A stretch of DNA of 64,000 nucleotides. Origin: Rivularia sp. PCC 7116. Its GTDB lineage: Bacteria; Cyanobacteriota; Cyanobacteriia; Cyanobacteriales; Nostocaceae. The position numbers and the translations under genes are program-made. The notes beneath the pieces are model-generated. The model was not told the origin of the DNA. It saw only the letters and a list, made by a program, of their open reading frames with translations, and made no database searches. Position 1 is the stretch's first letter; the number at the start of each line of letters is the position of its first letter. Location of the stretch: NCBI RefSeq assembly GCF_000316665.1, contig NC_019678.1, forward strand, positions 6,014,001 through 6,078,000, given 5' to 3'. Below, in pieces: positions 25,448 through 44,716 of this stretch.

Positions 25448-26524
25448 CTAACCCTTCTTCGGCTTTCGCAACGACTTGGAATCAATAGGGCCAAGTATTC
25501 TATTAAGAGCGCGTAATTGTTCCGCCGTTCCCATACTTATCATTACGTCCCCTGTCATTAAAATAGTATCTGCGGTGGGGCCACCAATTAATTCTCCACT
25601 AGCGCGACGGATGGCAAGTATTAAAGCTCCAGTTTTTGCTCGCAATCTGGCTTCCCCTAAACTTTGACCGACGAAGGGACAGGATTTGTAATCAATTAAA
25701 ACTTCTTCCATGTATAATTCTCGGTCTGTTCCCGAAATTATTCCGTCTACGAAATCCATTACTTGGGGTCTTAAAGCAGCAGCCGCCATTCTTCTACCGC
25801 CGGTGATATAAGGAGAAATTACAGCATCAGCACCCCCTCGCTGAAGTTTTTGTAATGCTTCCTCCGTACTCGCACGGGCGATCGCTCGAATTCGGGGATT
25901 GAGTGTTTTTGCAGATAAAACTATATATAAATTTTCAGCATCCGATGGTAGTGCGGCAACAATACAAGTAGCCTTATCTATCCCGACGCGCATCAGCGTT
26001 TCATCTAAAGTTGCATCACCTTGATATATGGTATAACCTTCTTCTTGCGCTGCTCTTACAGTTTCTACTTCCGAATCAACAATTACAAAACGTACCCCTT
26101 CAGCTTCAAATTCCTGGGCAATTTGACGACCTGTACGACTAAATCCGCAAATAATATAATGTCTAGATAATGATTCCATTGTTCGCCGCTGCTGCCTGAG
26201 TCGAATTCCTTCTTGAAAATATCCTTGAATTACGGCTTCTGTAAATCGATTAACAATATAACCAATGGTAACTATCCCCATTAAAATTAAGGCGATAGTA
26301 AATAATCTTCCTCGGCTTCCTAAAGGTCGAGTTTCTCCATAACCAACGGTTGACAAGGTAACAAATGTCATGTAAGTTGCGTCTTCCCACGACCAACCTT
26401 CTATAAACCTGTACCATAAAGTTCCCGTCAGCAACACCCCAAGAAGGGATAGTGTTCCAATCATTAATTCTTTCTGGATGCGACGATATTTTTGTTCTAA
26501 TATCGAAAAAACCGGTTTTCTCAT
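25448..26524 (-). CDS. Potassium channel with RCK (TrkA-N/TrkA-C) domains
   Basis: A 358-residue channel of the Kch/MthK type. Two transmembrane helices (about residues 21-38 and 75-95) flank a pore loop with the selectivity filter TVGYGE (residues 59-64; Glu in place of the usual Asp at the last position). A TrkA-N Rossmann domain follows (YIICGFSRTGRQIA, about 118-235), then a TrkA-C domain (about 265-345; LSIGTAEQL-like end). It conducts K+ across the cytoplasmic membrane under control of nucleotide or Ca2+ binding to the RCK ring. Monocistronic, convergent with the MMADHC-like gene. Confidence 0.93.
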   Translation of the reverse strand: MRKPVFSILEQKYRRIQKELMIGTLSLLGVLLTGTLWYRFIEGWSWEDATYMTFVTLSTVGYGETRPLGSRGRLFTIALILMGIVTIGYIVNRFTEAVIQGYFQEGIRLRQQRRTMESLSRHYIICGFSRTGRQIAQEFEAEGVRFVIVDSEVETVRAAQEEGYTIYQGDATLDETLMRVGIDKATCIVAALPSDAENLYIVLSAKTLNPRIRAIARASTEEALQKLQRGGADAVISPYITGGRRMAAAALRPQVMDFVDGIISGTDRELYMEEVLIDYKSCPFVGQSLGEARLRAKTGALILAIRRASGELIGGPTADTILMTGDVMISMGTAEQLRALNRILGPIDSKSLRKPKKG

Positions 26525-27059
26525 CGCTCTCCAAGCTTACAGAACGTTTGCCAACATAAATAAAACTACAAAGAAAATTACAAATAATCGTAAATACTCT
26601 TGTAATACTAATTATTAATTATTTAGTTATCAAGCTCAATAAGTCTTTGATTTTGCGATTACGACACCGAATAATACCATTATTCTCGCTGCTTTGATAT
26701 TATTCTTTAGGAAAATAATTTAATGTATTCTTTGCCGATGCCGGGAAGAGGGGGAGAGGGGGAGAAAATATTTTTTGTATTTACCATTTCCTTCAAACTG
26801 CATAAGTCAATATAAACGAATCCTATATAAAAATATCGAAATCAACAACTGCACAATTTTTCAAGCAGTTTCTATAAGTTGGGCAATATTGATGAAACAT
26901 TAATTAAGCATGAATTAAATATTTAATTCAAATCGCTATCTCTCATATTCTTCACTTTCTTTATAGTGCTTTAGAAACCTAATTCCTATATTGAAAATTT
27001 CGCTCTGAGTTAATATCAAGCCAACAAGCACAACTACTATAATTATTCAGGATTGAAAA
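26525..27059. other. Intergenic region, nothing recognised
   Basis: About 535 AT-rich bases between the divergent K+ channel gene and the small DUF4278 gene. A short GAGGGGGAGAGGGGG purine stretch occurs near 26748-26762. No coding frame or clear regulatory signal was found. Confidence 0.5.
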
Positions 27060-27242
27060 ATGTTTCTTACTTATCGCGGTTTATCTTACGAACGTAATTC
27101 TTCTGCATCGAAAACTGTAGAAACTAATAGATTTGCAATCTATCGCGGCATTGCTTATTGCATTCATCGTTCTATAGTTTTCAAAAATAATCAATTCAGT
27201 AGAGTTCTCATGTATGGCGGTATTCCTTATTTTAGAAATTGA
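27060..27242 (+). CDS. DUF4278 small protein
   Basis: A 60-residue protein with three short YRG/YGG motifs: YRGLSY at 5-10, YRGIAY at 28-33 and YGGIPY at 52-57. This tyrosine-rich pattern defines DUF4278, a family found almost only in cyanobacteria and often stress-related by expression; no function is established. It is basic and lacks a membrane segment. It stands alone, with weak ribosome-binding sequence. Confidence 0.75.
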   Translation: MFLTYRGLSYERNSSASKTVETNRFAIYRGIAYCIHRSIVFKNNQFSRVLMYGGIPYFRN

Positions 27243-27547
27243 TTATTCGTGTTCTAGTTTTTTCAAATAGCTTTAATCCAAACAGGGTAAGTAGGAAATA
27301 AAGCAGGTAAGACTACAAATATATTTACAGCTATTTGGTCTCAATAATATAACCTTTAGCTTGTCTTGCTTACTTCTGCCTCATGAATAACTGCAATTAT
27401 AGTTGAATTTTTATTTAGTTCGATTCATCTATGAATTATTAATAAATGTTTCGGCAGATAAAGATTATTTGATTTATAGGCATTTTGTTTTGATTGATGC
27501 GCTAGAAGAATTTAAATTAAGTAATTGTAATTCGTGCGGTGAATATC
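27243..27547. other. Intergenic region, nothing recognised
   Basis: About 305 AT-rich bases between two small genes; no open frame or repeat stood out. Confidence 0.45.
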
Positions 27548-27778
27548 ATGGCTAAGAATTCTTTTGCCACACTTAGGGAAGGTTCAACCGGAGATGCTGT
27601 AGTTAATTTGCAAGATTGTTTAAAGCTGGTTGGCGTTTACTCTTGCAAAAGTAATGGTGTTTTTGACGAAAGAACTAAAGCTGCTGTCATCAAATTTCAG
27701 AAAAATAATGCTATGACTGCTGACGGAATAGTCAGACGCGCTACCATGTCTGCATTAGTAAGATGTTGGTGGTATTAA
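27548..27778 (+). CDS. Small peptidoglycan-binding domain protein
   Basis: A 76-residue protein consisting of a single PG_binding_1 module (LREGSTGDAVVNLQDCLKLVG, DGIVRRATMSAL). It has two cysteines (C21 and C29 counted from this start) that could form a disulfide. There is no signal peptide, so export is uncertain. The ATG at 27548 is preferred over the GTG at 27539, which has no better ribosome-binding site. The domain normally ties cell-wall enzymes to peptidoglycan; here it occurs without an enzyme. Confidence 0.75.
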   Translation: MAKNSFATLREGSTGDAVVNLQDCLKLVGVYSCKSNGVFDERTKAAVIKFQKNNAMTADGIVRRATMSALVRCWWY

Positions 27779-28125
27779 ACGAAGGAAGAGGGAAGACCCG
27801 AAGTTGGGTGGAATTTTGATGGGGATTTCAACCCCAACCCATTCACGCGGAGCGTGGGAGGTCTTTTTCACCGTAGGTTACCTCTTAATTCAACCCATAT
27901 GTTTAGTTAATAGCATTATGAAAGCTTAAAATTTAATATTAGATTATATCATTTTTATATTCACGCATTATTAATAATGCCAGATGCACGAAAGGATGCA
28001 TCTAACGTACAAATGACATAAAAGCAAATATTTTCTCAAAATTAATTTATAAACTAATGCCAATTTTACTTAAGTAAGTTTATTTCAAGCATCAATTAAT
28101 ACAGATTACTTATAACAGCTAAATT
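27779..28125. other. Intergenic region with two hairpin repeats
   Basis: Contains a GC-rich repeat with CACGC-GGA-GCGTG and a T-run (about 27843-27870), which looks like a terminator for the peptidoglycan-binding gene. It also has the hairpin AGATGCA / TGCATCT near 27981-28003. No coding sequence seen. Confidence 0.5.
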
Positions 28126-28743
28126 CTAATCATTAACCGCTAACCCCTTAAACACAACATCAATTAGTTCATCTACAAAATTGTCGCTTAAAGGTAAGTG
28201 CTTTAACAGCAATCGGTAAAACAAAGGACTATAAAGCGCATCAATTGCCACTTCTGCATCAACATCATCGCGTAATTCTTCCCGCTCTACCCCGCGTTGA
28301 AAAATTCGCTTTGCATCTTCCCTTCTCGGTAACAGCCAATTTTCTCGGAAAGCTGCCATTAAATTATCATCAACCTGTCCGCTACCAATAACAGTCGCTA
28401 AAATTTCCCCCCTAGAGCTATTCATCAAATTCACAATTTTATTCATCTGCTCGCGAAAGTCTTCTTCTACCGAACCCGTATCGGGAAAAGCAATTTCCGG
28501 ATTCACTGCCGATAAAAACGCATCCATCGCTAACTGTGCTTTAGTTTTCCAACGTCTGTAAATCGTCGGTTTCCCTACTTCCGCTCTGGCTGCTACTCCT
28601 TCAATTGTCAAATCCATAAATCCCACCTCGTCAAGCATCTCATAAGCTGCTTTCAGGATTTTTTTATGAGCCTCTTCACACCGAGGTCTTCCTCTTCCTT
28701 GCTTGCTAGGTGTTTTACCTTTTCTTGTTTTAGCTGTTGTCAT
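28126..28743 (-). CDS. TetR/AcrR family transcriptional regulator
   Basis: A 205-residue repressor. After a basic tail (KTRKGKTPSKQGRGRPR), the TetR_N helix-turn-helix spans about residues 25-72 (ILKAAYEMLDEVGFMDLTIE, VGKPTIYRRWKTK). The C-terminal ligand-binding part (about 80-205) resembles TetR_C_11. The start codon is 20 bases from a perfect 12-base palindrome that is likely its own operator. The divergent gene at 29142 (NTF2-like) is a possible target. The ligand is unknown. Confidence 0.92.
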   Translation of the reverse strand: MTTAKTRKGKTPSKQGRGRPRCEEAHKKILKAAYEMLDEVGFMDLTIEGVAARAEVGKPTIYRRWKTKAQLAMDAFLSAVNPEIAFPDTGSVEEDFREQMNKIVNLMNSSRGEILATVIGSGQVDDNLMAAFRENWLLPRREDAKRIFQRGVEREELRDDVDAEVAIDALYSPLFYRLLLKHLPLSDNFVDELIDVVFKGLAVND

Positions 28744-28762
28744 ATTTTTAAATTTAATAAAA

Positions 28763-28774
28763 CGTTACGTAACG
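28763..28774. promoter_or_regulatory. Perfect palindrome CGTTACGTAACG, putative TetR operator
   Basis: A 12-base self-complementary site in AT-rich DNA, 20 bases upstream of the tetR start. The position and symmetry are those of an autoregulatory TetR operator. Inferred; no binding data. Confidence 0.55.
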
Positions 28775-29141
28775 ATAAAATTTTAAATTATAAATCAAAT
28801 AATGTCATATAAATAGTCTTATAAGCTGCTACGCATTTAACTTATATATTCGTTTGGCATTGATTAATGGCTACAACTCTTGTCCCTTCTTCCAAGAGTG
28901 TTGAATATAGCCCATGTAGATGGGCTTTGTTTGAGTAGCCCCAGCCTTATCGCTGCGGGCAATTTAGCGCAACCTCATACAGAATTGGTCTTACAAATAA
29001 TTTGAAAAAATGAATTGGAGGTATGTAGGTGGTGGATTTTCGGTAAGGTTTAATTATAAAAGCTTATTTTCACGCTTGTTAATCAGACAGTAATTAATTT
29101 TAGAAGATTGCTGATGGTATTTATAATAAGGATATTTACTT
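28775..29141. other. Intergenic region with a dispersed hairpin repeat
   Basis: Holds the hairpin AGCCCAT-GTAG-ATGGGCT (28909-28926), followed by TTGTTTGAGTAGCCCCAGCC, a type of interspersed repeat I recognise from other cyanobacterial genomes. The remainder is AT-rich with no gene. Confidence 0.55.
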
Positions 29142-29594
29142 ATGAGTAAAGTAATAGATTTTACGGTGAAGCGGGATGAAAAAGAGATTCGTAGGTTAAT
29201 TCAAAAATGGATTGATGTTTGGAATGTGAAGGATAAACCGTTTACGGGAAAGGGTTTTGAAGATATTTTTGCTGCTAAACAAATTTCCTTCGGTGTTGTT
29301 TTTAACTTTGAACTTACAACTTTACATAGTTTACAACAATATATAGATACTTTCGTTCCAATAATGGAGAAATTTAGTCATTGGGAAATTAAGGATGAAA
29401 ATGATTTAAATATTTGTGTCGATAACGGTTTAGGAGTATCTTCATTTTGTTGGTTTGGTTGTGGTAAGTCGAAAGATGGAGAAGAAATTAAGTTAAGCCA
29501 AGATGTTATTCATAACTGGGTACGTTTTGATAATGGATGGAGATTGGTAAAGGAACATTTGAGTTTTGGTAAATTCCCGAAATCGTTACTGTAA
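29142..29594 (+). CDS. NTF2/SnoaL-like fold protein, function unknown
   Basis: A 150-residue soluble protein. The opening helix (EKEIRRLIQKWIDVWNVKD), the central strands and the end HNWVRFDNGWRLVKEHLSFG give the pattern of NTF2/SnoaL-like alpha+beta barrels (small ligand-binding proteins or isomerases and ketosteroid-type enzymes). No catalytic residues can be assigned. It is divergent from the TetR gene and may be controlled by it. Confidence 0.65.
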   Translation: MSKVIDFTVKRDEKEIRRLIQKWIDVWNVKDKPFTGKGFEDIFAAKQISFGVVFNFELTTLHSLQQYIDTFVPIMEKFSHWEIKDENDLNICVDNGLGVSSFCWFGCGKSKDGEEIKLSQDVIHNWVRFDNGWRLVKEHLSFGKFPKSLL

Positions 29595-29817
29595 GCTTAA
29601 CTTCAAATTATTGAATCAAAATTGTAATGACTGTCATATTCATGTCATTTTCTAGATTCACAATAAAAATATAGAAAATTATTTAAAAGTTTACAAACCC
29701 TTTTTAAGAATGGGGTAAGTATAATTTTCTCCACGCAAAAACTGAGTACTGAGTACAGTCTTGGTTTGTTTATGCTGTGAATGATTCTTTACTAAGTACC
29801 ACTACCAATTAACAAAA

Positions 29818-32800
29818 ATGTCTCAAACTCAAACTATGTTATCAGGTATTGCGACTACTCCCCACGAACGTTATGAAGCTTGGGCTGAATCTTACGATGA
29901 GAGGACTAGTAGTTTTAATTGGTCTGCTCCTCAATATTTACTCAAAGCTGTTTTAGGTCATGCTATAGCGAAGGGTAATTTACGGGTACTTGATATTGGT
30001 GTGGGAACGGGACAAGCTAGCGTTCCTTATTTGGAGGCTGGAGCTTGTGTGACTGGGATTGATATTTCCCAAAAGATGTTGGAGGAAGCTAAGGCAAAAA
30101 ATCCGCAGTTTCATGCTTTGATAGAACATGATTTTAATATTCCTTTGAGTCAAGCTGGTTTATTAAAGGAAAGTTTTGATGTTGTTATCAGTTGTGGAGC
30201 GCTTCATTTTGCAACTGATTTACAAGAAACCCTTGCACAATTGAGATGGGTAATTGCAAACGGTGGAATTCTTGCTTTTACTTATATTCCCCCTCAAGAA
30301 AGAACTTTTAGTAAAGCAACGCAACCTCATAATCCGAATCATGTAGAAAGGATGTTGGAGCAATTTGAGTTTCAAGTGTTGGAACATCAACCATTTTTGG
30401 CTTATTACGATAACGGGGATAGCAACGACCCGGTATACTATCAGTTGATTGTGGCTGGTTGTACTAAACAAAAACAGAATTTACCAGAATCGTTAGTTAA
30501 TATTGACCGCACTGCTTGCGTTGACCGTTCTAAACTGGTTTCTGTTGTCAGTCAACCTTTGATGAAGGGAATTAGTCAAACCCAGTGGAGCGACGACTTA
30601 GAAGAGATTCAAAAGCAGAATCAATTTTTAGTTAATACACTGCGATCGCAAGTTGAATCGGGTAAAATTGAACCAAAAAAATTGCCTTTAACTCAAGTCA
30701 CAGCAGCTTTTTCGCGTCAGAGAATACCCGAAACCGATATTTTAGTATTAATGCCCCATCCCGATGACGAATCAATTTACGCTGGGGGAACAATAGCAGC
30801 TTTAACAGCAGCAGGATATAAAGTACGTTTGGTAGTTGCAACCGATGGCAAAGGTGGACGAGGTGCTGTCAATCAAAGAATTTCTGAATTAGATCGTGCT
30901 GTAGAAATTTTAGGTATTGAACGAGTTGAAACTTTAGGATTAGATGATTTTGGTAAATATCGTAATTCTGCTCGTACTATTCCGATAACGGCAGCCGATA
31001 CTCTTTGTGAATGGGGATTGGATAAAACCGCTTCGTTGATTGTCCATCAAATTCGTAAACATCGACCGCGAATTTTATTAACTCTACATCCAGAAGTTGA
31101 CCCCAACTATTCCTTACACGGACATCATCTTGGACTGGGAGCAGTTGCAGTTGTAGGATATCATCTCGCAGCAGACCCAAAATATATTCTTCCAGATTCT
31201 CCTAATTTATTACCTTGGGCAGTTGACGAACATCAGACAATTATTCCAGATATTTCCGAAAACTCTAGCGATCGCGATAGTAGAAATAAAATTCGGAAAA
31301 TTGAAATCGACAAAGAATTGAAATTAAAAGCAATCCTTGCTCATCAAACACAAGGATATTCCACACAAAGGTTAATTTCATTTCTCAAATCCGATAATCC
31401 CCAAAATAACTTTGAAACAATTCAAATCCTTCAAAGACGATGTTGTAGCAATCTAATTACAGCAATTTCTTTAACCTCGGATAGAAAACCTCACCCCTTC
31501 CCCTCTCCTTGTCAAGAAGAGGGGTATAATCACCGAAATTGGAATTCCATTTATAATTCAATCCGTCAAAGAAATTATCCCCGACATAAATTAGCAGAAT
31601 TATTAAAAAAACAAGCAGAAACCTGGGGAAATTCAAAAGAAGTAAAAGCAAATATTGATAAACTCCTAGATTCACAAACCGTAGCAGTAGTCACCGGACA
31701 ACAAGTCGGAATATTAGGAGGTCCCGTTTACACCCTTTATAAAGCTTTGGGAGCAATTAAATTAGCGAGGGTATTATCAGAGCAAGGTATACCAGCAGTT
31801 CCTATATTTTGGATGGCAAGTTACGACCACGATATAGACGAAGTTCAACAGGTCAAAATCTTAAATAAACGTCCCGAAGCAGAAATCCTCAACCTTGATT
31901 TAGCTAAAACTAACCGTTCCGTTGGCTCCACAAACTTAGGATTAACAATCGAATCCCTACTAGATGAAATAGAACGTTTACTTGCAAACCTTCCCCACAG
32001 CCAAGAAATTTCCAAAGTACTGCGAAATATATATCAACCACAAACTAATTTCGCTAAAGCCTTCGGACGCTGGTTAAACTATCTCACATCTGAATTTGGA
32101 TTAATTATTCTTGACCCCAATCAACCCGAATTTGCTCAGCTTGCTAAAAATATAATTACTAAAGAATTATTCCACGGTGAAGGAACTCAACTTGCTTTTC
32201 AACGCTCCCGACAAATTTTAGCTAATACCGGACAAACCGAAATAATACCAACAAACCGCGACGTTACCCAAGTATTCTTTACAGACAATAACGGTATCAG
32301 ACAACGGTTAATTAGGGTTGAGGGAGGTTTCCTACTGCAACAGACCAATCTTTTTGTTACTAAAGCCACACTCAAATATCTTTTAGAAAAGCAGCCAGAA
32401 AGATTTACGCCGAGTGCATTATTACGTCCCTTATATCAAGATACCGTTTTACCGACAATTGCTTATATAGCCGGTCCCACCGAACAAAAATATTTTACTC
32501 AACTACCCGAAGTTTATAAATGGGCAACTATTCCGATACCGGAAGTAGTCGCTAGACCTTCATTTACCGTCATTGATAGCGGTACGGCTAATATATTAAA
32601 TCAAGCAGGTGGAACAGTTAATTTACTGAACTCAACCGATGCTAGTTCCCAAATCGGAATAGCTGGTTTACCTAAAAATATCCGTCTCGCTTACCAAGAA
32701 TTAAACCAGCTACAGCAACAAAGCTTTGAATTACTCGAAATCGCAAAAGAAAATCAACCCCTAGGAAATAAACCCCTCAAACTTCAACAAGATATTGAAA

Positions 32801-33201
32801 ACTGGTTAGCAACAACAGCACCAATAATTCAATCTTGGGGTACAAATCGGATATCCAAAGTGTTTAACCATGCTCAAACCGAATTATATTCCTTAATCGG
32901 AACAGTTACCCAAGACCTAGAAAGTTCCGGTACACCAGGAAATCCACCCCCCTTGCGGAACAGTTCAAAACTGGCTAAAAAACTGGGTAACTTGCAAAAC
33001 AACATCCTACGAGAAGGAAGAAGACAAAACACACCCGGAATAGTAGCTTTAGCAAATATTAGTCCCAATAACTCTCCCCAAGAAAGAAATCTTTCAATAG
33101 CCGAACTCATAGCCAAACACGGTAAATCAATTATTCCTCATCTGCTACGAATTGCCGAAATTGATAGTCCAAAGAAATTGGTAATTGGGAATTGGGCATA
33201 G
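29818..33201 (+). CDS. Fused SAM methyltransferase - PIG-L deacetylase (BshB-like) - BshC, bacillithiol biosynthesis
   Basis: An 1127-residue three-domain protein. Residues about 1-220 are a class I SAM methyltransferase (motif I VLDIGVGTGQAS, D59-G65). Residues about 300-465 are a PIG-L/LmbE zinc deacetylase with PHPDDE at 313-318 and the zinc histidines in LHGHHLG (434-437), as in BshB. Residues about 565-1127 match BshC, the cysteine-adding enzyme: VVTGQQVGILGGPVYTLYKA near 624-643, then PVFW-like IFWMASYDHDIDEV. BshB removes acetate from GlcNAc-malate and BshC adds cysteine to give bacillithiol. The methyltransferase could N-methylate bacillithiol, as NmbA does in Chlorobi (inferred). A repeat-derived stretch lies in frame in the BshB-BshC linker (31489-31525). 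A BshA-like gene follows after 159 bases. Confidence 0.88.
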   Translation: MSQTQTMLSGIATTPHERYEAWAESYDERTSSFNWSAPQYLLKAVLGHAIAKGNLRVLDIGVGTGQASVPYLEAGACVTGIDISQKMLEEAKAKNPQFHALIEHDFNIPLSQAGLLKESFDVVISCGALHFATDLQETLAQLRWVIANGGILAFTYIPPQERTFSKATQPHNPNHVERMLEQFEFQVLEHQPFLAYYDNGDSNDPVYYQLIVAGCTKQKQNLPESLVNIDRTACVDRSKLVSVVSQPLMKGISQTQWSDDLEEIQKQNQFLVNTLRSQVESGKIEPKKLPLTQVTAAFSRQRIPETDILVLMPHPDDESIYAGGTIAALTAAGYKVRLVVATDGKGGRGAVNQRISELDRAVEILGIERVETLGLDDFGKYRNSARTIPITAADTLCEWGLDKTASLIVHQIRKHRPRILLTLHPEVDPNYSLHGHHLGLGAVAVVGYHLAADPKYILPDSPNLLPWAVDEHQTIIPDISENSSDRDSRNKIRKIEIDKELKLKAILAHQTQGYSTQRLISFLKSDNPQNNFETIQILQRRCCSNLITAISLTSDRKPHPFPSPCQEEGYNHRNWNSIYNSIRQRNYPRHKLAELLKKQAETWGNSKEVKANIDKLLDSQTVAVVTGQQVGILGGPVYTLYKALGAIKLARVLSEQGIPAVPIFWMASYDHDIDEVQQVKILNKRPEAEILNLDLAKTNRSVGSTNLGLTIESLLDEIERLLANLPHSQEISKVLRNIYQPQTNFAKAFGRWLNYLTSEFGLIILDPNQPEFAQLAKNIITKELFHGEGTQLAFQRSRQILANTGQTEIIPTNRDVTQVFFTDNNGIRQRLIRVEGGFLLQQTNLFVTKATLKYLLEKQPERFTPSALLRPLYQDTVLPTIAYIAGPTEQKYFTQLPEVYKWATIPIPEVVARPSFTVIDSGTANILNQAGGTVNLLNSTDASSQIGIAGLPKNIRLAYQELNQLQQQSFELLEIAKENQPLGNKPLKLQQDIENWLATTAPIIQSWGTNRISKVFNHAQTELYSLIGTVTQDLESSGTPGNPPPLRNSSKLAKKLGNLQNNILREGRRQNTPGIVALANISPNNSPQERNLSIAELIAKHGKSIIPHLLRIAEIDSPKKLVIGNWA
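31489..31525. repeat. Dispersed hairpin repeat inside the BshB-BshC linker
   Basis: ACCTCACCCC followed by the hairpin CCCCTCT / AGAGGGG (31500-31506, 31518-31524) resembles the intergenic repeat at 5975-6024. Here it is translated in frame as part of KPHPFPSPCQEEGY (about residues 558-571). Confidence 0.7.
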
Positions 33202-33360
33202 GGCATGGGGCATTGGTAATAGGTAATGGGTAATTGGTAATTGGAATATTATTTTCTTCCCCCTCTCCCCCCTCTTCCTTTGCGTTCCTCTGCGTAAACC
33301 TCAGCGCTCCTTTGCGTTTCAAAAAATATTTTTCCTATCTTCCACCTCTCTTAAAAAATC
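33202..33360. repeat. Heptamer-rich spacer between the bshBC fusion and bshA
   Basis: Degenerate GGTAATT/GGGCATT heptamers (about 33202-33245), then the AT/CT-rich stretch CTTTGCGTTCCTCTGCGTAA found as a common spacer sequence in cyanobacteria. It separates two genes of one pathway without an obvious terminator. Confidence 0.6.
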
Positions 33361-34548
33361 ATGCTCTCCTCACCAACCATCACAAACTATTCCTCAATCA
33401 CCTCCAACCTTCCATCAGAAAGAATCGCAATTTTATGCTTAGGAGGACTTGGAGGTAGCGGAAAAGTAGCAACCGAACTAGCACAACAACTTACATCAAC
33501 GGGAAATTCTATATTTTTATTTACCAGCCCCGAAGCTCAATGGGTAAACCAAAACAATTCCGTTAATTACATACCAGTCAACGCACCAAAAACCCCAACC
33601 CCCGCAAATTCCCAATGGATTGAACCATTAGCAAACGAAATTATCCACCACATTGAAACCCATAATATCGGCATATTAAACATCCATTACGCCGTCGGAT
33701 TAATTGAAGCAGCTTTGCTAGCTAAACAAGAATTAGCAACTAAAAATCGAAAATTAAAAGTTTGTTTGACTTTACATGGTAGCGATATTACTAAATTTGC
33801 ACGCGAACCTCAGTATAAATATAAACTTAAAAAATCTATAGAAAAGTGCGATCGCATTACTGCTGTTTCTCACTGGTTAGCCGACGAAGCAGTGAGACTA
33901 TTAGAATTAAAAACCCCTCCCACAGTCATTCACAACGCTATCGACTTAAATCTATTCCAACCCTTCCCCAGGTGGAATACAAATCAAAATTATACTTATA
34001 ACCTTTGTCACGTCTCCAATTTGCGCGATGTCAAACGCCCCTTAGATGCGATCGCAGTATTAGCAAGAGTTCGAGGTGCTGGAATACCCGCTCGATTATT
34101 AATGATTGGTGATGGTCCCAACTTAACTACAGCTAAACAACATGCTTTATCCTTGGGAGTATCCGAACACGTTATTTTCTTAGGCTCAGCAACTCCATCA
34201 GAACTTGTTCGCTGGTTGAGCATCAGCGATTTACAACTAGTCACCAGCCAATCCGAATCATTTTGTTTAGCAGCACTCGAAGCAATGGCTTGTAGCGTTC
34301 CCGTAGTCGGAACCTTTTGCGGTGGATTAGAAGAAGTAATCGGACTATTAGACAAAGATTTACCCGAATTGTTATTATCCGTACCCGGAGACACCGCCGC
34401 AATGGCAGCAAAAGTCGTACAGTTATTCAAAAATCCCCAACTTTACCAAAAACTCCGCAATACCCTACCCGAAAAAATCAAACACCGCTTTTCTCGTCAA
34501 AATCAATTACAAAATTACAGTAATTTGTTTGCTGCTGTAATTAATTAA
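33361..34548 (+). CDS. bshA: BshA-like GT4 glycosyltransferase (N-acetylglucosaminyl malate synthase)
   Basis: A 395-residue GT-B glycosyltransferase of family 4. Hallmarks shared with BshA are GGLGGSGKVATELAQQL near residue 28, TLHGSDITKFA, the C-terminal half opener HVSNLRDVKRPLDAIAVLA, and the nucleotide-sugar site ESFCLAALEAMACSVPVVGT. BshA joins UDP-GlcNAc and L-malate, the first step of bacillithiol synthesis. Location next to the BshB-BshC fusion strongly supports this role over other GT4 activities. A hydrophilic Ser/Thr-rich tail of about 20 residues precedes the domain, so translation may start later. Confidence 0.85.
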   Translation: MLSSPTITNYSSITSNLPSERIAILCLGGLGGSGKVATELAQQLTSTGNSIFLFTSPEAQWVNQNNSVNYIPVNAPKTPTPANSQWIEPLANEIIHHIETHNIGILNIHYAVGLIEAALLAKQELATKNRKLKVCLTLHGSDITKFAREPQYKYKLKKSIEKCDRITAVSHWLADEAVRLLELKTPPTVIHNAIDLNLFQPFPRWNTNQNYTYNLCHVSNLRDVKRPLDAIAVLARVRGAGIPARLLMIGDGPNLTTAKQHALSLGVSEHVIFLGSATPSELVRWLSISDLQLVTSQSESFCLAALEAMACSVPVVGTFCGGLEEVIGLLDKDLPELLLSVPGDTAAMAAKVVQLFKNPQLYQKLRNTLPEKIKHRFSRQNQLQNYSNLFAAVIN

Positions 34549-34656
34549 AGGTTAAAGGTTAAAGGTCAAAGGTTAGAAGTAATAAATATTTATTTCTCCT
34601 CCCCCTACTCATTACTCATTACTCCTTACTCCTTACTCCTTACTCCCTACTCTCTA
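34549..34656. repeat. Two runs of heptamer repeats
   Basis: AAAGGTT-type units (about 34549-34575) and ACTCCTT/ACTCATT-type units (about 34605-34650) fill the whole space between bshA and the MFS gene. Confidence 0.7.
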
Positions 34657-34658
34657 AC

Positions 34659-35921
34659 ATGAAACGACACCCTCCCGACATCCTCGTAATAGCAGCATTA
34701 TGGCTAATGGTATTAGCTTCAAGCTCTCAAGCAACAATTGTTGCTCCGATTCTTCCTCGTATTGGTGAAGCTTTAAATATCCCTGAAACATTACAGGGAA
34801 CTTTAGTTACTGGCTATGCAATTGCTTTAAGTACTTTTGCGGTTATCATCGGTCCCATATCCGACCGTTTTGGCAGAAGACCAATACTTTTAGCCGGAAC
34901 TAGTTTAATGTGTGTCATGCTTGCACTCCACGCATTCGCTAATGATTTTACTTCTTTATTAACCTTCCGCATCGGCGCTGGTGTTTCTGGGGGAGTTTTG
35001 ACGGGTGTAGCTGTTGCTTATGTGGGAGATTATTTTCCTTACGAGCGACGGGGATGGGCTAATGGATGGGTGATGAGCGGTTTTGCTTTTGGACAAGTGG
35101 TAGCTGTTCCGATTGGTACAATTCTTGCAGAGCAATATGGTTTTCGTTCTCCGTTTATATTATTTTCAATTATTGCAGCCATATCTTTTATATTAATTTT
35201 GACAGTTATTCCTCAACCAACAGGTAACCGCGAGCGGGAAAGTTTATCTGTAATATATGTCATAAAAAGCTATTTAAAATTACTGAATCAACGTAAAATT
35301 TTAAATGCTGGATTAGCTTATGCAACAATGCTTTTTGCAGTATCCAGCTTTGTAGTGTTTTTTCCAACTTGGCTCGAACAAGAATTAAGCATGTCTCCCT
35401 CTGCAACAGCAACTTTATTCATCGTCGGAGGATTGGCAAATATTCTTATTGGACCACAAGCTGGACGCTGGTCTGATAAAGTAGGTCGTAAACCGATGAT
35501 TCTCGCTTCTTGTCTGCTATCAGCGGCTGTATTTACGATAACTCCTTTTATAGTTTCCGATACCATCACTGCTTATACGGTATTCTTCTTAGTCATGATG
35601 CTGCTGGCATTACGTTTAAGTCCACTACAAGCTTTATTAACTACCCTCGTACCAGATAATCAACGCGGTTCTTTGATGAGCTTGGTTGTAGCTATCGGAC
35701 AGTTAGGAGGAGGGCTCGGTGGTGCGATCGCAGGAATCGCTTACGCTCAATTTAGTTTTCTTGGTAATGCAATACTCGCTGCAATTTCTATTACTGCTAC
35801 CGGGTTGATTGTTTGGTGGGGTTTATCGGAACCAGTTAAGTTACCAGAAACTACTCCTTTCCCAGTAGAAGATTTCCTAAATCATGAGGGAGAGAGTGAG
35901 GGAGTGAGGGAGAAATTTTAA
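34659..35921 (+). CDS. MFS transporter
   Basis: A 420-residue transporter with twelve predicted helices. Motif A GPISDRFGRRP lies between helices 2 and 3, with its echo GRWSDKVGRKP between helices 8 and 9, as in drug and sugar efflux MFS proteins. Substrate unknown. It follows bshA on the same strand after a 110-base repeat-filled gap, so co-transcription is possible, and export of a thiol-linked compound is a thought but unsupported. The last 12 residues (HEGESEGVREKF) are encoded by a purine-rich GTGAGGGA repeat, not by conserved sequence. Confidence 0.9.
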   Translation: MKRHPPDILVIAALWLMVLASSSQATIVAPILPRIGEALNIPETLQGTLVTGYAIALSTFAVIIGPISDRFGRRPILLAGTSLMCVMLALHAFANDFTSLLTFRIGAGVSGGVLTGVAVAYVGDYFPYERRGWANGWVMSGFAFGQVVAVPIGTILAEQYGFRSPFILFSIIAAISFILILTVIPQPTGNRERESLSVIYVIKSYLKLLNQRKILNAGLAYATMLFAVSSFVVFFPTWLEQELSMSPSATATLFIVGGLANILIGPQAGRWSDKVGRKPMILASCLLSAAVFTITPFIVSDTITAYTVFFLVMMLLALRLSPLQALLTTLVPDNQRGSLMSLVVAIGQLGGGLGGAIAGIAYAQFSFLGNAILAAISITATGLIVWWGLSEPVKLPETTPFPVEDFLNHEGESEGVREKF

Positions 35922-35968
35922 TAGGAAATCTTAGAGCGGAATGGGAGTAAAAAATATGAATAAAATTA

Positions 35969-35988
35969 GACGGGCAAGGATGCCCGTC
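35969..35988. terminator. Hairpin between convergent genes
   Basis: Perfect 8-bp stem GACGGGCA / TGCCCGTC with loop AGGA, between the end of the MFS gene (35921) and the end of the RTX gene (36061, other strand). No T-run, so terminator function is tentative; it is also a common repeat type. Confidence 0.45.
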
Positions 35989-36060
35989 CGACTCATTGTA
36001 AATTTTGCTAGGAAAACACCAAAAATAAGTTCTCCAATATCTGGAAGAAAATCCGATTAA

Positions 36061-39000
36061 TTAGAATATATCGGCAGCTTCAAAGGCAAGACTAGCAAAG
36101 GATACTTGATTATTACTATTCCATTGGCTAGCATTCCAGTCAATTTTATTGGTATTAAAACCAGTAGGGATATCTTGATTAGTAACGTTATCAATTAGTA
36201 CAAGTCCTATATTCTCAAAGCGGTCAACCCGCTCAACTTCTTTACCCGCAACAAACCAGTCTTTAAGAATAAGAGCATCATCAGAATTGCCGTTGTAGGA
36301 AACTTTCAAATCATTGTTATCCTTACTGAAACTGAGATTCAAACCACCGAACAGCAATCTATCTTCGCTGCTATCATCCCCTTCATTATTAATTGTTGTA
36401 TCACCAGATTGGGTTAAGCCGTCAAAGAGATATTTATCATTCCCTTCTCCACCACTGAAGGTATTATTTTCCCCTCCAGCAAAGAGCCAGTCATCCCCGG
36501 CACCAGCATCTAAGGTATTACCACCTTGAACAATGGGATTACCATTTTTGTCTTTCTTACCAGGTTGGTAGCTGACTCCAATTAAGAAGTCCTTGTCATC
36601 TCCACCTCTAATGGTGTTTTTGTATCCCAATCCTAGCAAAATATCTACTCCATTACCCCCATCAATGGTGTTTTTTCTTCCCGCAGCGATGAGCGTATCA
36701 TTATCGTTATTTCCATATACTACGTTAGACGAACCAGCAGTGAAAACTAGATCGTCTCCATCACCACCTTTAACAATGTTGGTTTTACCACCACTCAATA
36801 CTAAATCCTTACCTTCGCCACCAGTAATGGTGTTTGTATTCCCTCCACTGACGAGAATATCATCTCCCCTGTCACCACTAATGAGATTAAGTTTACCTCC
36901 AGCAAATATGAGGTCGCCGTTGTCTTCTAGGAATTTAAACTGAAACCTTTGAGGTAGATTAAAGCTGATATCTGGTAGTGTAAAGTTGAGTGAAGGAAGA
37001 GAAAGGCTTGGCAGAGCAATTGAAGGAATATTTAAGCCAGGAAGATCGGGAAGATTTATATCGGGAATTAAAGCGGAAATGTCAGGAAGGTTGGGAAGTC
37101 CAATGCTAGGTAGATTAAAGTTTGGTAAGCTGGGAAAACTAAAGTCACCAAAATCAGGTAGGTGGAAGTCAAAGTCAAAATCAAAGCTGAGGTCAGGTAA
37201 AAGACTATCAATACTAACACTAATGTCACTGAGGCTGAAATCGGAAATATAGTCGCCAAAGACAAAGTTGTGAAGACCTCCTACAACCGCAATATCTTGT
37301 CCCAAGCCGCCCACAACAGCATTTTTCATACCCAGTGTCACCAGGGTATCATTACCAGAGACAGGGGCAGTAGCAATATCTGCGGCTGACTTAATAGCAT
37401 CACTGAGTTTGAAGTCTGTAACTTTGTCAAGTACTGCATCGGCTCCAGCACTCAATACTTCACCAGTTTGGAAGACGGCAGAAATACTCTCAGCAATGAT
37501 GGGGTCGAGTGAGTCACCAAAAGCAATGTTTCCTTTACCTAGAGCGATGACAATATCGTCATTTCCACCGGCAATCATGGCATTTACCATACCCACAGCA
37601 CCGATGGTATCTTTGCTATCTCCCCAAGAGGTGATGATGTTTTGAGACGAACCACCAGTTATGGTTGATGTACCGTCTCCTATTTTGGTAATCAGATTTC
37701 CTGCACCTAAAGCCATTAAAGTATCATTCCCATAGCCTACTTTGGTGAGAATGTTAAAAGCTCCATGAGCAACCATAGTGCTGTCGCCATTAGCAAGTTT
37801 GGCGAAGACATTTAGACCAGCACCACCAGTTATACCTTCCGTACCATCACCAGTTTTAATGAAGACATTACCACCACCTAAACCTGTCATACTTTCGTAA
37901 TAGCCACCAGAACTATGGATAACATTGGCAAACCCTGCAACCGTTACATTATCGGTTCCGGAACCAGCTAAAACAACATTTGCACCACCATAGGAGTTAA
38001 TAGTATCATCACCAGTTCCACCGTTAACAAAATTCACCCCACCATAGGCATCAATAGAATCATTACCAGAGTCGCCATAAATGAAACTTGCACCACTGTA
38101 GGAATTGATATCATCATTACCAGAACCACCGTGAAGAGAAACAGCGATCGCATAGGCATTCATGGTATCATTACCGCCTTCCCCATAAGCAACACCACCA
38201 CCAACCATATTAATGGTGTGTCCTGTGCTATTACTCTTTTTGTAGGGAGAAGGAATGTATTCCAAGTAGTATTTTAACCACCAGTCACCAAGTAAATCAC
38301 CAATTCCTTCTGCAACTGTTTTGGCTGCATCCTCAGTAAAATCGGCTATATCCCCAGCAATTCCTTCAAACGTATCAGCAACATCAGTAGCAGCATCTAC
38401 AACCGCATTACCAAGACTGTTAAATGCACCAGTGATATTACCAAAAAATCCGCTTTTCCACCAGCTACTGTGGGGCTTTTCCCATACAGTAGGCAGCTTT
38501 TGAATAATGAAGCCATCTTTGCCATCACCATCGAAATCTCCAGTGATAACATTGCTACCAGCATAATAATAGGGATGATTGCCACTAGGACCACGCAAAA
38601 CATAGTAGCCCCTCATGTCATTGGCTTGGAGCAAATTACCTTGACTGGTGAATGTGCCATCTCCATTGGAAATCAAAACTTGGGCACTGTTTATTTCATC
38701 AGAACCTGCACCACCTTCTTCTCGACGAATAAAATCATCACGACCATCTCCATTAAAATCTAGTACGGAGATAGTTGCAGCACCTCTTCCCCATAATCCT
38801 AGGCTGCTACCAATATCCCTGGTGTAAGTAAAATTGCCATCCCCATTGGAAAGATAAACTACAGCATCATTGATACCATTTGCCCCACGTTTTTTATAGC
38901 GAATAAAATCATCTTTTCGATCTCCATTGAAATCTCCAACCACAATTTCAGCTTCATGCCCAAGTAAATAAAGACCACTGATATCGCTAGTGTAAGTAAA

Positions 39001-41874
39001 ATTGCCATCTCCATTGGAAAGATAAACTACAGCATCATTACTTCTATCACCGTGTTGTTCTTGGCGAATGAAGTCATCTTTGCCATCTCCGTTAAAATCA
39101 CCCACCACGATATCAGTTACATGTCCAGGTAAATGAAGACCACTGATATTACTTTGATAACGAAATGTACCGTCGCCATTAGATAACATGACAACAGTGT
39201 AATTGGCTCCATTTTTAGCCTGCCGAATAATGTCATCACGACCATCCCCATCAAAATCTCCAATCAGGAGATCGTAAACATCGAAGCGAAATCCAATATC
39301 TAAGATTCCTTTTTTACTGAAAGTTCCATCTCCATTAGCAAGATGAACCTCTGGATGATAGCCTGTACGGATTATGTCATCAATACCATCGCCATTAAAA
39401 TCACCGGACACCATAGAATGGGTAGGAGTCACATTGAATCTGGCATGATCCCATGAACTCACCTGAATTAATTGATGGGCATTTCCTAGGGGTTCAGTTA
39501 AATCAATACCTGTGAATAGAGAGCCACCATCGTAAAGTTTCACCCCAAGTTTCGTGGGATTTTTAGCTAAAACTAAATTATGGTTGTTAACACTAACATC
39601 TTCAGCAGAGTTGTTGTCAAAATTCCAATATCCTAATAAATTACTTTCATTTCCTTGCAGAGATTTATACATAGTTTGCTGAATCTCTGCTTGGGTCTTA
39701 GCTTTATTCCAGACACGAACTTCATCAATATCTCCGCGAAAATATTTACTATTGGAATGGGGGGCATAACCTATATGAAGATGGTTATTGTAGGTTATTG
39801 GTGATGCTCCTCCCGTTCCTACTCCAACAAATTGACCATTAACATATAACCTTTGCTGATTCAAACTACCATCAATGACATGGGCGACATGATGCCAATT
39901 TCCATCTGCTAAATTTTGTCCATGAGCAGTAACATAATTTAGAGAATCATTGAAGTTATTGGCATGGAGAATACCATTTTGTAAAAAGATAGCTCTATCT
40001 GGGTTCGCAGAACCAATAATGGAGAAAATACCTGCATTGGGGTCAGTTGTGCGGAACCATAGTTCATGGGTGACGTTAGTTGCTGGTTCACTAAGAATTG
40101 TATGAGCAGATTCATAAAAGTTTGTCCCCACATTCAAAGACAGGGTATGGTTCATATGCCCTGAAGGTGGTTCCACCACAACATCATTCACATCAATATC
40201 CACATAAAGGTTATCAAGTGACTGATTAACATCCGTTGTTTGAACTTTAAGCTGGTGGAATTTATCTGCCTCGTAGTCTAGAAAATTGTAATTAGCAACT
40301 TTTATTTCTCCAGTATGCCGATTAATAGCAAAAATACCTTGCTCATTACCAGCCAGGATTTTATACTTATTGATTCCTGATGTTGCAATTGTACCAACTA
40401 CAGAGCCATTGATACTATTTTCATTGATATTAAAACGGTGTCTACCTAACATTTGGCTAACTTCGGCAGATTCTTTTATTAAATAGCCTAGCTGAACTTC
40501 ACCAACACCATGTTGAACTAAACCCCATCTCTGTCCTCCAAAATTAATGCCTGTAGATGAGTGAACATCAATGCTTGCCAGTTCGCCATTATTAAAAACA
40601 TTAGCTAAATCATCTTTCCCATCATCATTAAAGTCACCAGTAATCCATTTTTGAGCATCCCAAAACCCCCCTTGTTGATTCGCCCAGTGCTGTATTCCAA
40701 AGTTACTACCACTGGATAAATGAACATCAATATTAGCTCCACCAGCATTGTTAAAAACTTTAGCTAAATCGTCTTTACCATCCCCATTGAAGTCTCCACT
40801 AACCCACTTTTGACTATCCCAAAATCCCCCTTGCTGATATGCCCAGTGCTGTATTCCAAAGTTACTACCACTGGATAAATGAACATCAATATTAGCTCCA
40901 CCAGCATTATTAAAAACATTAGCTAAATCATCTTTACCATCACCATTGAAGTCACCACTAATCCACTTTTGAGCATCCCAAAATCCACCTTGGGCTGCTG
41001 CCCAGTGTTGCATCGCGAAGCTACCACCATTGGAGATATGGGTATCAATGTAGGCTAAACCACCAACACCAAAAGCTTTAGCTAAATCGTCTTTACCATC
41101 CCCATTGAAGTCGCCACTAACCCACTTTTGAGCATCCCAAAATCCACCTTGCTGAGTAGCCCATTTGTGGATACCAAAACTATTACCATTGGATAAATGA
41201 ACATCAAGACTAGCTAAACCACGGTCATTAAAAGCTTTAGCTAAATCGTCTTTACCATCACCATTGAAGTCACCAATAACCCACTGCTGTTCATCCCAAT
41301 ATCCACCTTGCTGAGTCGCCCATCTGTGCATCACAAATTTGTCACCACGGGATAGGAAAACATCAATACTAGCTTGTCCAGCATCATTGAAAATTCTCGC
41401 TAGGTCATCTTTTCCATCTCCGTTAAAATCCCCTTGCAAAAACTTAACTTGCTCCAGAGTTGGAATTGTTGTGGTGGTGACAGGGGAGCCTGAATAGCTA
41501 TTAGCGAATAGAACAGAACCGCTTAAAGCAGTACCATTTTTGAATAAATTTTTATTAGCATTGAAAGTAATGCGATCGCCGTTTGATAAACCTGGGTTAT
41601 TTATCGCACCATCTTCAATCAGGAAAAAACCGAGTTTTACCGCTCCTACGGGTAATTCTTCCTTTTTTATAGATATACTTTGTCGGTTACTCTCGTTGGT
41701 GACATCAGCATAGACAATTCTGCCTTCAATATAGTTACCATAAGCATCTAAAAAGTAGTAACCCAAAGAAGCACGCCTTCTAGCACCTGCTGTGAGTTTA
41801 TCTGGATCGATAATTATATCTTCGGTAACACCAACCTGAAAAAGACCATCACTATCAGGAGTTAATAATTTCAT
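36061..41874 (-). CDS. Giant secreted FG-GAP / cadherin-like / LamG / RTX protein
   Basis: A 1937-residue acidic protein. In order it has a DUF4114-like N-terminus (about 1-125); six FG-GAP units with a 54-residue period (GDFNGDGKDDLAKVFNN, about 145-465); a cadherin-like domain (about 475-570); a LamG/concanavalin-like domain (about 575-780; ELWFRTTD, LLGYWNFDN); and a second FG-GAP set (about 810-1130). A short helical linker follows, then RTX-like glycine/asparagine repeats (about 1215-1850), broken at about 1550-1645 by a Leu/Pro/Asp-rich segment with a PxLxLP-like rhythm. No signal peptide is present, so type I secretion through the C-terminus is expected. It is probably a surface or extracellular adhesin or matrix protein. 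The nearly identical 162-base repeats at about 40600-41430 indicate recent duplication. No secretion genes nearby. Confidence 0.88.
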   Translation of the reverse strand: MKLLTPDSDGLFQVGVTEDIIIDPDKLTAGARRRASLGYYFLDAYGNYIEGRIVYADVTNESNRQSISIKKEELPVGAVKLGFFLIEDGAINNPGLSNGDRITFNANKNLFKNGTALSGSVLFANSYSGSPVTTTTIPTLEQVKFLQGDFNGDGKDDLARIFNDAGQASIDVFLSRGDKFVMHRWATQQGGYWDEQQWVIGDFNGDGKDDLAKAFNDRGLASLDVHLSNGNSFGIHKWATQQGGFWDAQKWVSGDFNGDGKDDLAKAFGVGGLAYIDTHISNGGSFAMQHWAAAQGGFWDAQKWISGDFNGDGKDDLANVFNNAGGANIDVHLSSGSNFGIQHWAYQQGGFWDSQKWVSGDFNGDGKDDLAKVFNNAGGANIDVHLSSGSNFGIQHWANQQGGFWDAQKWITGDFNDDGKDDLANVFNNGELASIDVHSSTGINFGGQRWGLVQHGVGEVQLGYLIKESAEVSQMLGRHRFNINENSINGSVVGTIATSGINKYKILAGNEQGIFAINRHTGEIKVANYNFLDYEADKFHQLKVQTTDVNQSLDNLYVDIDVNDVVVEPPSGHMNHTLSLNVGTNFYESAHTILSEPATNVTHELWFRTTDPNAGIFSIIGSANPDRAIFLQNGILHANNFNDSLNYVTAHGQNLADGNWHHVAHVIDGSLNQQRLYVNGQFVGVGTGGASPITYNNHLHIGYAPHSNSKYFRGDIDEVRVWNKAKTQAEIQQTMYKSLQGNESNLLGYWNFDNNSAEDVSVNNHNLVLAKNPTKLGVKLYDGGSLFTGIDLTEPLGNAHQLIQVSSWDHARFNVTPTHSMVSGDFNGDGIDDIIRTGYHPEVHLANGDGTFSKKGILDIGFRFDVYDLLIGDFDGDGRDDIIRQAKNGANYTVVMLSNGDGTFRYQSNISGLHLPGHVTDIVVGDFNGDGKDDFIRQEQHGDRSNDAVVYLSNGDGNFTYTSDISGLYLLGHEAEIVVGDFNGDRKDDFIRYKKRGANGINDAVVYLSNGDGNFTYTRDIGSSLGLWGRGAATISVLDFNGDGRDDFIRREEGGAGSDEINSAQVLISNGDGTFTSQGNLLQANDMRGYYVLRGPSGNHPYYYAGSNVITGDFDGDGKDGFIIQKLPTVWEKPHSSWWKSGFFGNITGAFNSLGNAVVDAATDVADTFEGIAGDIADFTEDAAKTVAEGIGDLLGDWWLKYYLEYIPSPYKKSNSTGHTINMVGGGVAYGEGGNDTMNAYAIAVSLHGGSGNDDINSYSGASFIYGDSGNDSIDAYGGVNFVNGGTGDDTINSYGGANVVLAGSGTDNVTVAGFANVIHSSGGYYESMTGLGGGNVFIKTGDGTEGITGGAGLNVFAKLANGDSTMVAHGAFNILTKVGYGNDTLMALGAGNLITKIGDGTSTITGGSSQNIITSWGDSKDTIGAVGMVNAMIAGGNDDIVIALGKGNIAFGDSLDPIIAESISAVFQTGEVLSAGADAVLDKVTDFKLSDAIKSAADIATAPVSGNDTLVTLGMKNAVVGGLGQDIAVVGGLHNFVFGDYISDFSLSDISVSIDSLLPDLSFDFDFDFHLPDFGDFSFPSLPNFNLPSIGLPNLPDISALIPDINLPDLPGLNIPSIALPSLSLPSLNFTLPDISFNLPQRFQFKFLEDNGDLIFAGGKLNLISGDRGDDILVSGGNTNTITGGEGKDLVLSGGKTNIVKGGDGDDLVFTAGSSNVVYGNNDNDTLIAAGRKNTIDGGNGVDILLGLGYKNTIRGGDDKDFLIGVSYQPGKKDKNGNPIVQGGNTLDAGAGDDWLFAGGENNTFSGGEGNDKYLFDGLTQSGDTTINNEGDDSSEDRLLFGGLNLSFSKDNNDLKVSYNGNSDDALILKDWFVAGKEVERVDRFENIGLVLIDNVTNQDIPTGFNTNKIDWNASQWNSNNQVSFASLAFEAADIF

Positions 41875-42361
41875 ATTAAAATAATTTTTATAGGAATGAA
41901 AACAATTTAATTATGCTAACTTTTTAAATTAACGTCAATTCAAAGGTTGTTTAGATTGTATGTTGACAAAAACAGTACTTTGCGACAATTAATATTTAAC
42001 AATATAGAATCTTTAAATTGCTTATGTGAAATTACTTATTATTGTTTTGGCGTACAAACAAAACTAATTTTTTTTTATAGCAATCCTATATGAGTGGTGA
42101 GAAAGATAGGTGCGAGAAACCCGGTTTTTTGGAAAAACCGGGTTTCTCAGATCTCACAAATGATTTAGGAATGCTATATATATTTATTGGTTGAGATGTT
42201 TTCGAGTTACCCCACCATAAGCCATTTGAGTGTAATTGTTCCGTTACCGGAACAGTTGCACGCTCAACCGGAATAATCCTAAAGCCTTATTACTAATTAA
42301 TGCGTAATCGTTCTAATAACTGGTCGGAAAAACCGCCCGAGACATAAAGTCTTGGGTGTAA
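41875..42361. other. Intergenic region containing a MITE-like element
   Basis: Probable promoter region of the giant RTX gene on the minus strand, followed by the palindromic element at 42076-42179. Between 42190 and 42360 no coding frame was recognised on either strand. Confidence 0.5.
42076..42179. repeat. MITE-like palindromic element
   Basis: Terminal inverted repeats TATAGCAATCCTA (42076-42088) and TAGGAATGCTATA (42167-42179; 12 of 13 match) enclose a central hairpin with GAGAAACCCGGTTTTT arms (42114-42129, 42133-42148). The central hairpin and left end recur at 17474-17547. The size of 104 bases with inverted ends and no gene fits a miniature transposable element. Confidence 0.65.
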
Positions 42362-42563
42362 AAGTAGTTGGCAGTTTTTCCTTTATATTGCCGGATTTTT
42401 ACAGGTCAAAACTTATCAGCTATTTGGATGCAATATCTAACAGCTTACGGAGCTTTGAATTATTACGGTCAGATGAAGGCTGGGAATTATGTGGTAATTA
42501 CAGCAGCTAGTAGTAGTGTGGGTTACTCCGCAATTGAGCTTTTTATTTATCCGAATACCTGAA
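42362..42563 (+). pseudogene. Remnant of a medium-chain alcohol dehydrogenase/quinone reductase
   Basis: One open stretch reads FTGQNLSAIWMQYLTAYGAL then NYYGQMKAGNYVVITAASSS-VG, which is the region around the nucleotide-binding site of a zinc-type MDR dehydrogenase. Neither the N-terminal catalytic domain nor the rest of the Rossmann fold is present, and the frame ends a few codons later. It sits immediately before an intact MDR gene, but the sequence is from a different subfamily, so it is a leftover rather than a duplicate of that gene. Confidence 0.65.
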
Positions 42564-42683
42564 AGTAGTTCTTTTTAATATTGCAAAAATTTACAGATTT
42601 TGCTGTTTAAAAAGCAGATTGAAAATAATGCCCTAAACTACGACCAAGAAAAGCATAAGTCAAATGATTCAAAGGTACTAACA

Positions 42684-44670: not shown

Positions 44671-44716
44671 TAATTGAATTTATCGTGGTAATTTATAACC
44701 ACAATAAATTCAATTA
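44671..44716. terminator. Bidirectional terminator between convergent genes
   Basis: Arms TAATTGAATTTAT (44671-44683) and ATAAATTCAATTA (44704-44716), plus an inner GTGGT/ACCAC, form an 18-bp stem. It lies directly between the ends of the aldo/keto reductase and the WD40 ATPase and overlaps the stop of the latter. Confidence 0.7.

Follow-up and report, generated by a model that had tools for sequence, protein, structure and literature searches.

The described systems closest to the genes reported here are the BshA-BshB-BshC pathway for bacillithiol, found in Bacillus, Deinococcus-Thermus and Bacteroidota, and the N-methyl-bacillithiol pathway of Chlorobaculum tepidum, in which a class I S-adenosylmethionine (SAM) methyltransferase stands alongside BshA, a deacetylase and BshC. 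According to PMC6282198 and PMC12719100 this methyltransferase, NmbA (CT1040, PDB 9RI2), is a protein of its own, monomeric and 266 residues long, whose cap has four strands; PMC6282198 and PMC6336425 describe cyanobacteria as glutathione organisms. In the genome of Rivularia sp. PCC 7116 (8,728,773 bases in 3 contigs) we analysed a stretch of 64,000 nucleotides (contig NC_019678.1, positions 6,014,001 to 6,078,000; hereafter the window, with coordinates counted from its first letter), in which three genes at 29818-35921 probably form a single accessory pathway to a methylated bacillithiol that is exported. As in the BshA-BshB-BshC pathway, the locus brings three activities together, with matches to the BshA and BshC equivalog models and a PIG-L deacetylase, and as in C. 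tepidum a class I SAM methyltransferase accompanies them. Unlike the classical pathway, the deacetylase, BshC and the methyltransferase lie in one chain, a transporter gene is linked to them, the hosts carry gshA, and the PIG-L domain falls under the BshB cut-offs; in addition, BrxA/B was not found and YpdA did not exceed its cut-off in a panel of 14 genomes (10 with the fusion and 4 of the same genus without it). Among the literature matches listed, seen in part, none dealt with bacillithiol genes of cyanobacteria or with a methyltransferase-PIG-L-BshC fusion; the data set of PMC12719100 may list cyanobacteria, and the available portion of that paper names Cyanobacteriota in its reference list only and mentions sparse members in several phyla. 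The BshC domain has probably already been labelled automatically in RefSeq.

The fused gene (29818-33201, forward strand, as are all features below unless stated) is a single ATG-to-stop frame of 1127 amino acids, in which Pfam, NCBIfam and an alignment of 10 orthologues delimit a methyltransferase, a conserved linker, a PIG-L deacetylase and a BshC region. The methyltransferase occupies residues 14-215 (29857-30462), includes motif I (VLDIGVGTG) and a match to the class I SAM family Methyltransf_11 at residues 58-154 (whole-protein E 7.9e-16), and is invariant across the orthologues at 89 of its 202 positions. It is followed by a linker of 79 residues (222-300, 30481-30717; IDRTACVDRS ... QPLM), 29 of them invariant, which belongs to no known family: besides PIG-L, no Pfam match at E <= 0.1 was found there in any of the 10 members. 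The PIG-L (LmbE-like) domain at residues 309-439 (30742-31134; PF02585, E 6.9e-21) was matched by its family in 10/10 members, with the motifs PHPDDE and HGHH invariant throughout. Like other LmbE/PIG-L deacetylases it aligns with Rv1170/MshB (PDB 1q7t) across the HPDD motif and a later histidine, which we take to be metal ligands or catalytic residues; unlike MshB it is fused and preceded by a conserved N-terminal linker, and its substrate would be GlcNAc-malate. A profile of the domain matched diacetylchitobiose deacetylase and MshB in the PDB, and BshB1 (6p2t) more weakly. A predicted structure of the PIG-L domain with its linker reached a pLDDT of 45.8 and was left unused.

Between the PIG-L and BshC domains lies a variable linker (residues 546-570, 31453-31527), which by eye looks like a translated palindromic repeat in the window and at which the inserts of the orthologues differ in length and are in some cases longer. 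The BshC region comprises a Rossmann-like domain (residues 571-913, 31528-32556; PF10079, E 2.2e-82) and a C-terminal coiled-coil domain (residues 1003-1111, 32824-33150; PF24850, E 9.2e-08). It scored 354.4 bits against the BshC equivalog model TIGR03998, for which the cut-off is 265.8, and the same model matched 9/9 members at E <= 1e-10, the tenth (L006), which ends at a contig edge, having been left out. In the PDB the BshC family profile matched a single entry at E <= 0.001, the solved BshC structure 4wbd (1.6e-55). A first-pass annotation, made from the sequence by a model, had placed the three domains in one frame of 1127 residues on the strength of the motifs VLDIGVGTG, PHPDDE, HGHH and VTGQQVGILGGPVYT; all four are present, and the profile results bear out the architecture, including its C-terminal BshC part. 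The methyltransferase is conserved on a par with the other domains of the fusion, mean pairwise identity among the 10 orthologues being 71.6% for the methyltransferase, 76.3% for PIG-L and 66.8% for the BshC core. The gene is under purifying selection, with dN/dS of 0.08-0.29 across five segments in six pairs and of 0.14-0.26 for the methyltransferase alone.

The next gene, bshA (33361-34548), encodes an N-acetyl-alpha-D-glucosaminyl L-malate synthase of 395 amino acids, and its earlier description as BshA-like was confirmed by the equivalog model TIGR03999 (276.8 bits, cut-off 273.7). This model matched 8/8 BshA members at E <= 1e-20, and the PDB matches of the family profile at that threshold were 2jjm, 3mbo, 5d00, 6d9t and 6n1x, of which 5d00 is labelled BshA and 2jjm and 3mbo are presumably the Bacillus enzyme. 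Orthologues scoring 244-277 bits occur in eight of the ten fusion genomes, compared with scores of 155 bits or less in the four same-genus genomes that lack the fusion. The two BshA-negative fusion genomes are G543 and G391, the latter a metagenome-assembled genome (MAG) that is 84% complete and in which the contig ends inside the fused gene. Downstream of bshA we identified a third member of the set, absent from the first-pass annotation: a gene at 34659-35921 for a 420-residue transporter of the major facilitator superfamily (MFS), resembling drug:H+ antiporters (MFS_1, E 4.9e-59), which reached the cut-off of none of the NCBIfam transporter models among the matches listed. At E <= 1e-30 the transporter was found in 10/10 fusion genomes and in 0/4 same-genus genomes without the fusion, and in six relatives it is 72-93% identical to the window protein; the G388 and G391 copies are on a different contig from the fused gene, that of G391 being a partial frame of 325 amino acids. 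The order fusion-bshA-MFS is complete in 7/10 loci, with all four genera represented, and the other three loci comprise two contig ends and one deletion. In four loci (L007, L008, L010 and L021) bshA and the transporter gene overlap by 4 bp. Locus L007 also carries two transposase genes, of the Tn5 and IS4 types, between the fused gene and bshA (13519-17167).

The fusion is real, not an artefact, and it is conserved across genera and rare. BshC (PF10079) was present in 1/386 genomes of a phylum sample and 1/388 of an order sample, in both cases the window's own genome; the two samples overlap, and the fusion-bearing relatives are absent from both. At closer range it was found in 4/8 genomes of the genus and in 10/217 of the family, distributed over 4 of 56 genera, and in all 10 of these family genomes BshC lies in a frame of 1068-1216 amino acids that the methyltransferase profile also matches. 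The same fusion is thus present in other cyanobacteria. A scan of genome contigs with six 8-residue patterns, by which only close relatives are detectable and distant fusions in other phyla would be missed, gave 39 matches, six of them encoding a relative; the carriers are Calothrix parasitica NIES-267, Calothrix sp. PCC 7716, Calothrix sp. NIES-4105, Dulcicalothrix desertica PCC 7102 and MAGs labelled Richelia and Calothrix. These six contigs appear to belong to six of the ten fusion genomes. In plasmid records, from which those near the window genome were possibly left out, no place covered 80% of the fused protein.

Identity between genera is 56-65% for the fused protein and 72-77% for GshA (9/10 fusion genomes, G391 having no gshA match), and in a GshA tree G390, which does not have the set, joins the window genome with support of 0.996, a picture that fits old presence and repeated loss. 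Simple vertical descent is called into question by G437 and G443 (L008, L007), in which GshA is 99% identical but the fused protein 84%; in the tree of the fused protein, G443 instead groups with G440 (support 0.885). Exchange of the set within that genus, or unusually fast change of it, is possible. Inter-genus branching has weak support values of 0.367 and 0.759. Some flanking genes are shared within the genus; outside it, the flanking frames compared did not match the window frames at 24-50 kb, with one exception at 27% identity.

In the pathway that we consider probable, BshA would join UDP-GlcNAc with L-malate, the PIG-L part of the fusion would remove the acetyl group and the BshC domain would add cysteine to give bacillithiol. 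The fused methyltransferase would transfer a methyl group from SAM to bacillithiol or a precursor, most likely, in analogy to N-methyl-bacillithiol, to the amino group of cysteine, and the MFS protein would export this product or a conjugate derived from it; joining three domains in one chain may also permit channelling between them. Several points weigh against this reading. The bacillithiol-type product is predicted from genes, the substrate of the methyltransferase and the methylated atom are putative, and export is argued from the superfamily of the transporter. In the window BshA exceeds its cut-off by just 3 bits, and it does so in 3/14 genomes, with five fusion genomes just under (244-270 bits). 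The PIG-L part is far under both BshB cut-offs, at 51.1 bits for BshB1 (cut-off 182.5) and 38.4 bits for BshB2 (cut-off 195.25). The earlier BshB assignment therefore stands as far as a PIG-L deacetylase with conserved motifs is concerned, and fails at the level of the equivalogs; judged by these profiles, the domain is a member of the PIG-L/LmbE superfamily and not a BshB1 or BshB2 equivalog, and a BshB label would draw on the PIG-L match, the conserved HPDD and histidine, and gene context. Finally, in G543 (L019) the fused frame is open, yet bshA is gone and the transporter mostly gone: bshA gave no tblastn match there, and a 129-residue MFS remnant corresponding to residues 271-392 is retained (7820-12002), indicating that the parts are not strictly inseparable. 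If the pathway is as proposed, the bacillithiol family would extend to a further phylum and acquire a new enzyme architecture, bacillithiol methylation would seem to have been recruited more than once from different methyltransferases, and the co-occurring transporter leads to the proposal, concrete enough to test, that a derivative of bacillithiol acts outside the cell.

The first-pass annotation had proposed an N-methylated bacillithiol as an additional thiol system in a glutathione user. Read as a model in which N-methyl-bacillithiol serves inside the cell as a second redox buffer and the fused methyltransferase does the work of NmbA, this is a proposal that we regard as unlikely. The pathway genes are indeed present, and for a methyltransferase joined to PIG-L and BshC the obvious substrate is bacillithiol or its precursor; N-methyl-bacillithiol is moreover made in Chlorobiaceae and Polaribacter, according to PMC6282198. 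The coexistence with glutathione that this proposal invoked was also borne out at the level of genes, as BshA, PIG-L and BshC occur together in a gshA-bearing cyanobacterium and cyanobacterial gshA is over its cut-off in 13/14 genomes, the exception being the incomplete G391. The identification with NmbA fared less well: a class I SAM domain with motif I is there, whereas the four-strand cap is at odds with the predicted model. PMC12719100 describes strand 5 of NmbA as followed by a pair of cap strands, a helix and 24 residues that are not modelled. In the model of the fused domain (mean pLDDT 61.8; 72-93 per ten-residue block at residues 111-190), just 16 residues separate strand 5 (146-156) from the helix that follows it (173-182), which leaves no room for the second pair of cap strands; the N-terminal part of the model, the expected site of the first pair, is uninformative at pLDDT 32-51. 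Set against the published description of NmbA, the fused domain thus differs in being about 200 residues long, in being part of a larger chain and, on the predicted model, in its cap. Its identity with NmbA is not supported by the present evidence, and cysteine N-methylation by it is possible. Among the matches listed in a PDB comparison of the methyltransferase 9RI2 did not appear, its presence in the searched PDB copies being unconfirmed.

The role of an intracellular buffer is likewise difficult to reconcile with the remaining genes. YpdA (TIGR04018, cut-off 339.9) exceeded its cut-off in 0/14 genomes, with a best score of 91.2 bits, compared with 3/14 controls. BrxA/B (PF06491) was found in 0/14 genomes, but it was detected in only 1/14 controls (B. 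subtilis) and was silent in BshC-bearing Thermus and Deinobacterium, so its absence weighs little. Together these results suggest a product unlike a main redox buffer served by recycling enzymes of the known kind, although other recycling is conceivable, and we would not expect an internal buffer to have a dedicated transporter. A different account, in which the same scaffold enzymes use a changed acceptor or amino acid to make an exported, methyltransferase-decorated natural product that resembles bacillithiol, would accommodate the distance of the PIG-L part from the BshB models, the likeness of the set, transporter included, to a small metabolite cluster, and its patchy distribution and decay. 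Mycothiol-type elements are reportedly used in lincosamide synthesis. We nevertheless think this account quite unlikely, because BshC and BshA match bacillithiol equivalogs and 4wbd is the sole structure matched by the BshC profile at E <= 0.001. It is very doubtful that the product is plain bacillithiol, with the methyltransferase acting elsewhere or merely holding the complex together. The fold of the methyltransferase names no substrate, as its best structural neighbours (METTL6, phosphoethanolamine methyltransferase, a toxoflavin-pathway methyltransferase and RebM) are tied within 1 Z and give no substrate hint. However, motif I is kept (VLDIGVGTG in 8/10 orthologues, VLDVGVGTG in L019 and L020), the domain is invariant at many positions and under purifying selection, and at E <= 1e-15 the methyltransferase profile matched only the 10 fusions and two 60-bit paralogues in the 14 genomes.

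Comparison of the 10 upstream regions revealed a direct repeat, TGTCAT-N5-TGTCAT, with a period of 11 bp (29632-29648 in the window), which is a putative site for a response regulator of the OmpR/PhoB type; 11-bp direct repeats are generally typical of such regulators. The repeat is exact before 8/10 fused genes, at 107-336 bp upstream of the start used, and has 2 mismatches in the sister pair L019/L020. An exact copy within 400 bp upstream on the gene strand was thus seen in 8/10 regions, compared with 2/20000 first-order Markov simulations, a figure to be read as a footprint and not as ten independent events since the ten regions are related. In the window alone the repeat is not significant (1 match with at most 1 mismatch, 0.29 expected, at least one in 24/100 shuffles). 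Genome-wide, exact copies numbered 3 in the window's own genome (G000), 4 in G386, 2 in G387, 3 in G440 and 7 in G545, compared with 1, 0, 1, 3 and 2, respectively, for a reversed-pattern control; the totals of 19 and 7 sites over the five genomes are little above chance, and sites away from the fused gene may mostly be chance occurrences. The second and third sites of G000 shortly precede a gene for an LTXXQ (Spy/CpxP-like) protein and one for a glucose/sorbosone dehydrogenase, and each site has its counterpart in G386. The LTXXQ protein scored 23.2 bits in G000, under the cut-off of 24.3, and 31.9 in G386; near its site (L067 1501-1901, L078) an HtrA-like protease frame was noted by eye, and the dehydrogenase site is represented by L075 and L076.

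The 11-bp direct repeat is typical of PHO boxes, the E. coli PHO motif being CTGTCAT (accessible part of PMC4415409), and the SphR box of Synechocystis is given as CTTAACCT in the portion of PMC1906773 at hand. A Pho-regulon assignment was rejected, as the repeat differs from the cyanobacterial SphR box and the 3 sites in G000 do not front phosphate genes. Fur-like boxes upstream of the fused gene were also discarded, the best candidates in the 10 upstream regions having 6-9 mismatches in 19. We therefore retain the repeat as a putative element of the response-regulator type, through which the fused gene may be controlled. A further extension of the exported-bacillithiol reading, which we put forward tentatively and consider improbable as a whole, is a secreted route in glutathione-using cyanobacteria of the Rivularia/Calothrix type: a three-domain synthase would make a methylated metabolite of the bacillithiol class with its own efflux pump, a regulator acting at the TGTCAT repeat would perhaps also act on the Spy/CpxP-like gene, and the product would serve as an extracellular metal ligand or thiol shield and not as a cytoplasmic redox buffer.

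Around the set, no RNA families were detected at 26000-42600 at gathering cut-offs. Upstream of the fused gene lie a TetR regulator gene on the reverse strand (28126-28743) and a gene for a small protein without a Pfam or NCBIfam match (29142-29594); relatives precede the fusion in L005, whereas none were seen in a comparison of eight other loci, several of them short. Further upstream, a 184-residue protein encoded at 24750-25304 matches MMADHC, the methylmalonic aciduria type D protein, with a score of 54.7 bits against a cut-off of 27. Downstream of the transporter gene, the reverse strand encodes a protein of 1937 amino acids with FG-GAP repeats, laminin-G and RTX-type repeats (36061-41874) and an AAA-like protein of 1181 amino acids with WD40 repeats (44714-48259).

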